Below, piece after piece: positions 29,364 through 34,675 of a DNA stretch of 64,000 nt. The stretch spans positions 2,790,001 through 2,854,000 of the forward strand of contig NZ_CP147505.1 of NCBI RefSeq assembly GCF_037201915.1, written 5' to 3'. This DNA comes from Haloplanus sp. CK5-1 (GTDB lineage: Archaea > Halobacteriota > Halobacteria > Halobacteriales > Haloferacaceae). Made by a program: the position numbers and the translations under genes. Positions within the stretch are counted from its first letter, which is position 1; the number at the start of each line of letters is the position of its first letter. The notes beneath the pieces are model-generated. The model saw only the letters and a list, made by a program, of their open reading frames with translations, was not told the DNA's origin and did no database searches.

Positions 29364-30267
<904 letters not shown>

Positions 30268-30271
<4 letters not shown>

Positions 30272-30879
30272 GCGACGAGTCGACTCCCGACGGATGGCCG
30301 GTCGCGCTCCGTGGCGTCACCGAGTCCGTGGTGGCGACGCTCGGACCGAACGACCGCTGGAACCAGGCGGCGCTCGGCCTCCACGCCCCCGACGACGGCG
30401 GTCCAGTCACGGCGGTGACGTGGGGTCGAACCCGGACTCGCGGCAACTTCGAGCGACGGGACGGTGGCGTCGTCCAGTTCACGACCGATCCCCGCGAGTT
30501 CGTCGACGCCGCACTCGACGTGACCGAAACCGAGGAACCGGTTCGGGACGGCGCGGCCGCGTGGGTCGAGGTGGACGCCGAGCGGGTGGCCGAGGGCGAA
30601 GACGGCGGGACCGAGTGGATCCGCTGGGCGCTCACGCCCCGGTCGTCGAGCGTCGTCGAGCGGACGGTGCCGACGATCAACCGCGGGTTCTACGCCGTCG
30701 TCGACGCGACGGTCGCCGCCTCACGACTCGACGTGTCGGCCTACGACACCGCGGCCCTGCTCGATCGACTCGCGTACTTCGCGGAGACGGTCGAGCGGTG
30801 TGGCGGGCATCGGGAGCGGACGGCGTTCGCCCGGATCGACGACCTGACCGACTGGCGCGACCGGAACGAATCGCTTTAG
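30268..30879 (+). CDS. DUF447 family protein
   Basis: A 203-residue GTG-started protein: LRGVTESVVATLGPNDRWNQ, TWGRTRTRGNFERRDGGVVQFT, DPREFVDAALD and RTVPTINRGFYAVVDATVAASRL. This matches DUF447, a flavin-reductase-like fold found in methanogens and haloarchaea. It is the last of four overlapping genes after cofD. The conserved partner is the CitG-like gene; the pathway they serve is unknown. Confidence 0.8.
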
Positions 30880-30904: not shown

Positions 30905-31099
30905 ATGGCGATCAAACCCAAGTACGTCAAACAGCTCGGTGGGCTCCTCTTGGAGCGGTATCCCGAGGCGTTCAACGCCGACTTCGAGACGAACAAGGAG
31001 AGCGTATCGAAGTTGACCAACGTCGAATCGAAGGGCGTTCGCAACCGGATCGCGGGCTACATCACGCGGAAGAACGCTGGCCCGGCGCAGGGTTCCTGA
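30905..31099 (+). CDS. rps17e: 30S ribosomal protein S17e
   Basis: A 64-residue S17e: MAIKPKYVKQLGGLLLERYP, then DFETNKESVSKLTNVESKGVRNRIAGYITRK. Full length for archaea, and monocistronic with its own TATA box. Confidence 0.97.
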   Translation: MAIKPKYVKQLGGLLLERYPEAFNADFETNKESVSKLTNVESKGVRNRIAGYITRKNAGPAQGS

Positions 31100-31142: not shown

Positions 31143-32698
31143 TCACTCCGGGCGTTTGAGCTCGACGGTGAACACGACGCCGCTCGGTTCGTTGGCGTCG
31201 GCCCACACCCGACCGTCGTACTCCCGGACGAGGACGTCGACGATGGACAGCCCGAACCCACCCCAGTCGCGGGCGTGGCCGTAACGTTCCTCCCCGAACA
31301 GTTCGGTCCGTCGCTCCGGCTGGATGCCGTCGCCGTCGTCGGCGACGGTGACCGTGACCGTCTCCGGTTCGGCCTCGACCCCGACGGTGACGGTGACTGC
31401 GGCGGGGTCGTTGTGTTCGACTGCGTTCGTCAGCAGGTTGTCGAACACCGTCTCCAGCATGTCGTCGGCGCGGACGCGGAGTTCCCCGTCCGGAGGTGTG
31501 TACTCGACGGTCGCGTCCGGATACGACTCCCGGACGGACGCGACGGCATCCTCGAGGGGATCCGATGGGTCGATACACCGGTCGACCTCCACGTCGACCG
31601 CGAGGCGACGTGCGGTCTGGACGAGGTCGACCACCTCCTCGCTCCGGTGGCGGATCACGTCGAAGTCAGCCTGCCGGTCCTCCGGCACCGACGGTTCGAG
31701 CGCGTCGAGTTTCGCCATCACGAGGTTCATGCCGTTGAGGACGTTGTGTCTGAGCAGCCGGTTGAGAAACCGGACGCGAGCCCGCTCCTCGACGACTTCG
31801 GCCTCGCGTTCGGCGCGGTCGGTTACGTCGTGGAGTGCCGACAGGTGGTAGCCGGGCAGGACGTTCGCCGTGGCGGCGAAGGCGACGGTCCGCGTCTCGC
31901 CGTCCGGCCGCAGGAGGTCGATTTCGCCCCGCCGTCGGTCCTCGTCGGCGAACGGAGCGTCGCTGTCGAGGAAGTCGCCGACGTGCATGCCGATCAGTTC
32001 CGACCGCGGGAGCCCGAACAGATCCGCCGCAGCCGGGTTCGCGGCCACGTACCGTCCCTCGTCGTCGGTGATCACGAGGGCGTCGAGCGTTCCCTCGAAC
32101 ACCGCCCGGAACTGGCGTTCCCGGCGGCTCAGCCGTTCGTGTCGGCATCTCGCGCGCACGTCGTACCGGCTGACGAGGAGGCCACCGACGGCGCCGAAGG
32201 CCGCCAGTTCGTACACGAGAAACAGCGGCGAGTCGACGACGTGGCCGTGGCTGGCAGCGGCGAGTCGACGACGTGGCCGTGGCTGGCGTGGAGCGTGACG
32301 ATGTACAGCGAGCCGACGCCCACCGCCCCGAACCCGGTCGCCACCCAGAACGCCGTCACCGGCGGCGCAGGGGGGTCCGCCTCGTAGTAGAGCCACACCG
32401 ACGTTCCGACCAGAATCGCTCCGAACACCAACGGCACCGCGTCGCCCAACACCCCTTCGACCGATCCACCGTGTCGGAGCAGGTGGTACAGGGGAGTGCC
32501 GAGGAGGACGACGCCGACGGCGAGGACGACACCACTCCCGAGACGACGGCGACGCCGAGCCGACACGTCGGGGACGACCGAATCCAGCCAGCCGGTCAGT
32601 CCCGCCTGCGTCGGTCGCTCGCCGAGGAGACCGGCGAAGGCGTCCTCGCCGGGCCGCCCGACGGTCACGTCGTCGGTTCCCCCGTATCGTTCGCTCAT
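31143..32698 (-). pseudogene. sensor histidine kinase broken by a 32-bp tandem duplication
   Basis: The 5' part (from MSERYGGTDDVTVGRPGEDA) encodes a linker and about three membrane helices up to LHASHGHVVDSPL, then runs out of frame. The 3' part resumes in another frame with HVVDSPLFLVYELAAFGAVG, a PAS domain (FRAVFEGTLDALVITDDEGR to LSALHDVTDRAE), an H-box (LNRLLRHNVLNGMNLV) and HATPase boxes (FDNLLTNAVEHND, DDGDGI, GGFGLSIVDVLV). The break coincides with two exact 32-bp copies. Removing one copy restores a 507-residue kinase. No response regulator gene is adjacent. Confidence 0.9.
32225..32288 (-). repeat. exact 32-bp tandem duplication
   Basis: Two identical adjacent 32-bp copies (32225-32256 and 32257-32288), beginning AGCGGCGAGTCGACGACG on the plus strand. 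Since 32 is not divisible by 3, the duplication shifts the kinase frame. Confidence 0.97.
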
Positions 32699-32788: not shown

Positions 32789-33061
32789 TCAGAGGCGGTC
32801 GGCCCGGCCGGCAGCGGTCCACTCGTCGGTCGGTGTCCCGTCGGTGACCCGGACCGACTGCCCTTGGAGGGTCGCGAGTCGGCCGGCGAAGACCCACCGG
32901 CCGTCGGCCCAAGTGTCGGCCTCTTCGTCCGCTGTGGCGGCCGCGGCGAGGTAGCCGTCGCGAACGTGTGCGCCCACGGCGGCCGCGATGGCCGCGGCCT
33001 CCTCGTCGTCGGCGTCCTCCGGGACGTCGAGGTCGAGGTCGGGAGCGGGCGTTCGGGCCAT
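32789..33061 (-). CDS. pccX: propionyl-CoA carboxylase small subunit PccX
   Basis: A 90-residue acidic protein: [20 protein letters not shown], then [20 protein letters not shown]. It starts inside the pccB stop (ATGA). Haloferax propionyl-CoA carboxylase needs a third small subunit, PccX, encoded next to pccB; size, position and the helix plus WxFAGR tail fit. Similar tails occur in the epsilon subunits of actinobacterial acyl-CoA carboxylases. The pccA (biotin carboxylase) gene is not in the window. Confidence 0.8.
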
Positions 33062-34611
33062 CAGATCGGGATGTTGCCGTGTTTCTTCTCGGGCGGGTTC
33101 TCGCGTTTGGTCTTGAGCATGTGGAGGTCGTCGACGAGGCGCGTCCGGGTCTCCTGTGGTTCGATGACGTCGTCGATGAACCCCCGGTCGGCGGCGGTGT
33201 AGGGGTTGGCGAACTCCTCGCGGTACTCCGCGACGAGGTCGGCTCGGCGGGCCTCGGGGTCGTCGGCCGCGTCGAGTTCGTCGCTGTAGAGGATGTTCAC
33301 TGCGCCCTCCGGGCCCATCACCGCGAGTTCGGCGGTGGGCCACGCGTAGTTCACGTCCGCGCCGAGGTGTTTCGACGCCATGACGCAGTAGGCGCCGCCG
33401 TAGGCCTTCCGCGTGATGACGGTGAGGAGTGGAACGGTCGCCTCGGAGAAGGCGTAGAGGAGTTTCGCGCCGTGGCGGATGATCCCCCGGTGTTCCTGGT
33501 CGGTGCCGGGCATGTACCCCGGCACGTCGACGAAGGTGACGATGGGGACGTTGAACGCGTCACAGAAGCGGACGAACCGCGAGGCCTTCATGCTGGCGTC
33601 GACGGTCAGCGTCCCGGCGTTCGACCGGGGTTGGTTGGCGACGACGCCGACGGAGTGGCCGTCGAGGCGGCCGAACCCGACGACGACGTTTCTCGCCCAG
33701 TCGGCGTGAATCTCGAAGAACGAGCCCTCGTCGACGACGCCACCGATCACGTCCCGCATGTCGTAGGGTTTCCGTGGCTGATCGGGGACGACGTCGGTGA
33801 GTTCGTCCGCCGAGCGGTCCGGGTCGTCCCACGGGTCGACCCGTGGCGGGTCCTCGACGTTGTTCTGGGGGAGATAGGAGAGCAGACGGCGGATATTGTC
33901 GAGTGCCGTCTCCTCGTCCTCGTAGGCGCCGTGGGCGACACCCGTCTTCGAGGCGTGGGTGGCCGCCCCGCCGAGTTCCTCGAAGGTCACCTCCTCGCCG
34001 GTGACCGTCTCGATCACGTCCGGGCCGGTGATGAACATGTGACTGGTGTCGCTGACCATGAACACGAAGTCCGTGATCGCGGGGGAGTAGACCGCACCGC
34101 CGGCACAGGGGCCCATGATCCCCGATATCTGTGGGACGACGCCGCTCGCCCGTTCGTTGCGGTGGAAGATGTCGGTGTAGCCCGCGAGGCTCCGGACGCC
34201 CTCCTGAATGCGCGCCCCCGCGGAGTCGTTGAGGCCGACGATCGGTGCGCCGACGTCCATCGCCTTGTCCATCACTTTACAGATCTTCTCGGCCATCACC
34301 TCGCCGAGCGACCCGCCGAAGACGGTGAAGTCGTGGGCGAAGACGAACGTCTTGCGGCCGTTCACGTCGCCGTACCCCGTGACAACACCGTCGCCGGGGA
34401 GTCGTTTCTCTTCCATGCCGAACTTGTGGGTTCGGTGGGTGCGGAACTGGTCGAACTCGGTGAACGTGCCGTCGTCGAGGAAGTAGTCGACCCGCTCGCG
34501 GGCGGTCATCTTCCCTTTCGCGTGTTGGGACTCGATGCGGTCCTCGCCGCCGCCGAGGAGGGCCCGCGCCCGCTTCTCGCGAAGCTCCTCGATGCGGTCC
34601 TCCATGGTCAT
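33061..34611 (-). CDS. pccB: propionyl-CoA carboxylase carboxyltransferase subunit PccB
   Basis: A 516-residue carboxyltransferase that carboxylates propionyl-CoA to methylmalonyl-CoA, for propionate use and 3-hydroxypropionate-type routes. The N and C carboxyltransferase halves are clear: [36 protein letters not shown], then [38 protein letters not shown] and [17 protein letters not shown]. The start [15 protein letters not shown] has an alternative ATG two codons on. Coupled to pccX downstream. Confidence 0.94.
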
Positions 34612-34675
34612 GGTCGACCACCTATCATCGTACGATAGAGGTTCGACCGGCGGCAAAAGGATTCCGACGCCGGGA

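Follow-up and report, generated by a model that had tools for sequence, protein, structure and literature searches.

A 32-bp tandem duplication breaks the reading frame of a sensor histidine kinase gene in Haloplanus sp. CK5-1

The kinase locus and its flanks

The region analysed, referred to here as the window, is a stretch of 64,000 nucleotides from Haloplanus sp. CK5-1, carried on a single contig of 3.24 Mb (G000, C1), of which it covers bases 2790001-2854000. Within it is a gene for a sensor histidine kinase, the parts of which lie in two different reading frames (Table 1). Pfam identifies a PAS domain (PAS_8, 4.9e-10) and a HATPase domain (HATPase_c, 6.2e-19) in the kinase, and the H-, N- and G-boxes are visible in the alignment with its orthologues, intact as the original prediction described them. 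Among the NCBIfam matches listed, no family is above the cut-off apart from the general PAS (sensory_box) domain.

The order of the neighbourhood is largely shared with related genomes, running from a 203-aa protein through a small ORF and the kinase to a carboxyltransferase-like protein. The 203-aa protein, which we take to be DUF447-like, is present in the examined stretch of 7 of the 9 kinase-bearing relatives. The small ORF is presumably ribosomal protein S17e-like. On the other side, the carboxyltransferase-like gene, assumed here to encode an acyl-CoA carboxylase carboxyltransferase-like product, was found in all of the relatives compared.

Table 1. Features of the kinase locus, in window coordinates.
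Feature	Position	Strand	Basis or remarks
Conserved 203-aa protein, flank on one side	30268..30879	+	84-88% identity in relatives
Small conserved ORF, flank	30905..31099	+	The G009 and G010 intervals have it too
Sensor histidine kinase gene (membrane segment, PAS, H-box, HATPase), frame-shifted	31143..32698	-	ORFs, Pfam, collinear with nine intact orthologues
C-terminal part, other frame: end of membrane segment, PAS, H-box LLRHNVLNG, N-box, G-boxes	31143..32246	-	ORFs, Pfam, alignment
Membrane-part ORF, truncated, 189 aa; tail of out-of-frame residues and TGA at 32131-32129	32129..32698	-	ORF list
First 32-bp copy (plus-strand order)	32223..32254	-	TRF and direct comparison; boundary ambiguous by 1 base
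Second 32-bp copy, identical	32255..32286	-	TRF and direct comparison; repeat reaches 32287, 1 base further
Carboxyltransferase-like protein, flank on other side	33061..34620	-	About 91-95% identity in relatives

The duplication

A tandem repeat with a period of 32, 2.0 copies and 100% matches is reported by TRF at 32223-32287. Direct comparison gives a maximal repeat of 65 bp, made up of the two identical copies and 1 extra base. The two exact, adjacent 32-bp copies that had been predicted are therefore present, although their placement at 32225-32288 was off by 1-2 bases. The duplication shifts the frame of the kinase gene after about 150 residues. As had been proposed, this separates the membrane part from the PAS-HATPase part, with the 189-aa ORF ending at a TGA and the PAS and HATPase domains in the other frame. 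The gene spans 1556 nt (32698 to 31143); without one copy it would be 1524 nt long, which is 507 codons and a stop, in agreement with the 507-residue protein expected from a single-copy gene.

Since the repeat runs on by a single base, the two ends of the unit would have had 1 base in common in the ancestral sequence. Because the unit ends share so little, the duplication probably did not arise by slippage between existing repeats.

Intact orthologues in the genus

An uninterrupted, single-copy orthologue of the kinase is found in nine Haloplanus relatives, with 63-70% identity over the C-terminal part. In all nine the membrane part and the kinase are continuous in a single frame, which they are not in Haloplanus sp. 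CK5-1, and the broken frame set against intact syntenic orthologues is what is seen in a pseudogene. Since nine orthologues have it, the single-copy intact form is ancestral. The 32-bp duplication is absent from all nine; the repeat is thus neither conserved nor variable in copy number among these relatives, as it might be at a phase-variable locus.

Both pieces of the kinase align end to end with the orthologues and have no further stop or frameshift. The suggestion that the gene has no other damage holds to that extent, but seven PAS residues common to 9 of 9 orthologues are missing from the Haloplanus sp. CK5-1 kinase, as are 1-3 residues of the linker. Both differences are in frame.

A protein search of 79 genomes of the family with a cut-off of E 1e-60 found the kinase in Haloplanus alone. 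A search of genome contigs gave one true orthologue, from H. ruber; the other matches were distant kinases from other phyla, and none came from a conspecific strain.

Loss of the kinase in relatives

Two relatives have the flanks with little or nothing of the kinase between them. In G010 the flanks are about 790 bp apart and the sole trace of the kinase is a remnant of 36 C-terminal residues (L107:1650-1757), which matches kinase residues 330-365 with 64% identity (E 3e-10). In G009 there are about 640 bp between the flanks and no convincing kinase match in this interval, the best being 26 residues with an E of 0.009. In a PccB nucleotide tree, Haloplanus sp. CK5-1 and G010 are sisters (support 0.999) and G009 groups with G007, which carries the kinase. 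The losses in G009 and G010 are therefore separate, and the kinase has been lost at least twice outside the Haloplanus sp. CK5-1 lineage. Given the remnant in the sister genome and the syntenic absence in G009, the kinase is dispensable in the genus.

Age of the break and constraint on the gene

The ratio of differences at codon positions 1 and 2 to those at position 3 is 0.48 in pairs that include Haloplanus sp. CK5-1, compared with 0.50 +/- 0.05 (sd) among the other pairs. This ratio dates the break loosely, most of the divergence counted being older than the duplication. The further decay or relaxed constraint of a pseudogene is not seen, the ratio being equal to that of the orthologues, as expected if the break is very young. 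The kinase thus evolved under its normal constraint until not long before it was duplicated in part, and the break is young. The identity of the copies, the single-copy form in nine orthologues and the undiminished codon constraint bear out the earlier view that the event is recent. The lack of further decay fits a young null allele and a reverting allele equally well.

Rarity of frame-shifting duplications

The search for perfect tandem repeats (unit 12-500 bp) covered 40 sampled stretches and the window, amounting to 864 kb of the Haloplanus sp. CK5-1 genome. There are 26 with a unit of 12 bp or more, 23 of which have a period divisible by 3. The 32-bp repeat in the kinase is the only frame-shifting perfect tandem duplication inside a gene in this sample. 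Duplications of this kind are rare in this genome, which would be expected if most of them do harm.

Interpretation of the interrupted kinase

It is very probable that a membrane sensor histidine kinase, restricted to the genus and dispensable there, was recently inactivated by a 32-bp tandem duplication that arose by chance. From the sequence, translation would end at residue 189, which cuts the PAS and kinase domains off from the membrane part, and the cell would presumably lose signalling through the kinase. The loss may have been neutral, or may have been selected in culture or in nature. Loss of the gene appears to have been caught at its very first stage; in two relatives of the same genus the gene is already absent or reduced to a remnant. 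As it stands, this is an ordinary loss-of-function allele and annotators should mark the kinase as frame-shifted. Once formed, a 32-bp direct repeat could be removed by slippage or recombination, and exact removal of one copy could restore the gene, probably at a low and unprogrammed rate. In Halobacterium pyrE2 a deletion hotspot lies at a short direct repeat (PMC2816208), and haloarchaeal mutation normally includes small indels (PMC9997560); reversion would therefore be possible, but not programmed.

The original prediction suggested that this may be a reversible on/off switch, a reading that is not supported. The kinase would then be phase-variable, with the duplication arising and collapsing at a sufficient frequency to serve as the device. 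The exact tandem copies in an otherwise undamaged frame favour this, as does the Halobacterium pyrE2 hotspot. There is also a parallel in the pneumococcal capsule genes, where short intragenic tandem duplications are described as inactivating the genes and controlling phase variation (Waite et al. 2001, 2003, as cited in PMC4022640). There too a short tandem duplication within a reading frame turns a gene off, but switching has been observed in culture, whereas for the archaeal kinase there is one state in one genome. In S. pombe ssp1, according to the review in PMC13207564, microhomology-mediated tandem duplications turn the gene off and can collapse. The kinase shares with ssp1 a two-copy tandem duplication in a coding region, reversible in ssp1, but the ssp1 units are bounded by microhomology pairs and the homology flanking the kinase repeat is 1 base. 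Because of that single base at the unit ends, re-formation at the same site is not favoured. Only two copies of the unit are present, none of the nine orthologues has the repeat, and the gene has been lost in the sister G010 and in G009. Any exact tandem duplication can collapse precisely, and this is not evidence of a switch. A device of this kind is thus quite unlikely, and it is very doubtful that an archaeal kinase phase-varies here as a 32-bp intragenic duplication comes and goes, the many chromosome copies of a polyploid cell perhaps carrying a mixture of alleles. If switching were shown, a signalling gene controlled by duplication and collapse would be known from an archaeon. Phase variation of gacS by tandem duplication has been reported; a literature search for it found no paper that could be confirmed.

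An assembly error, or a mutation selected during growth of the sequenced strain, is unlikely, though less so than a switch. The singularity of the duplication in the 864 kb sampled would fit such an origin, as would the intact remainder of the gene with constraint like that of its orthologues. Against an error, an exact 32-bp duplication is atypical of sequencing errors, and reads of all common types are longer than the array. With regard to selection during growth, virus escape mutants of Haloferax gibbonsii had in-frame tandem duplications of 15 and 48 bp in an S-layer gene (PMC9973310). These are likewise short tandem duplications in a haloarchaeal gene, and arose spontaneously, but they are in frame, alter the protein rather than breaking it, and were under a known selection, unlike the kinase duplication. 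It is also conceivable, but extremely improbable, that the gene now encodes a split working kinase, a membrane stub and a soluble PAS-kinase made by translation restart near 32159. A GTG at 32159 is in the kinase frame, just ahead of the TGA of the first ORF and so overlapping its end, and the 338 codons that follow include the PAS, H-box and HATPase. However, GTG codons of this sort should be common in a frame rich in G+C, the split form is found in no relative, and the restart product is a prediction. The knockout of a dispensable kinase by a chance duplication remains the preferred explanation.

Other tandem repeats

Two other repeats in the sample have frame-incompatible periods and were rejected as in-gene cases. 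One directly follows a tRNA-Gly (CCC) and has a 65-bp unit in 7.5 copies without mismatch (L043:5201-5690; G000:C1 about 653201-653690), each unit opening with bases shared with the tRNA 3' end. The other is a perfect two-copy duplication of 95 bp (L058:5688-5877; G000:C1 about 1463688-1463877) that appears to sit between two membrane-protein genes in divergent orientation, where it may cover their promoters. Within the window, the 6-bp unit GCCGAC is repeated 9.3 times without mismatch at 29546-29601, in frame in a 548-aa ORF, where it encodes alternating Ala-Asp.
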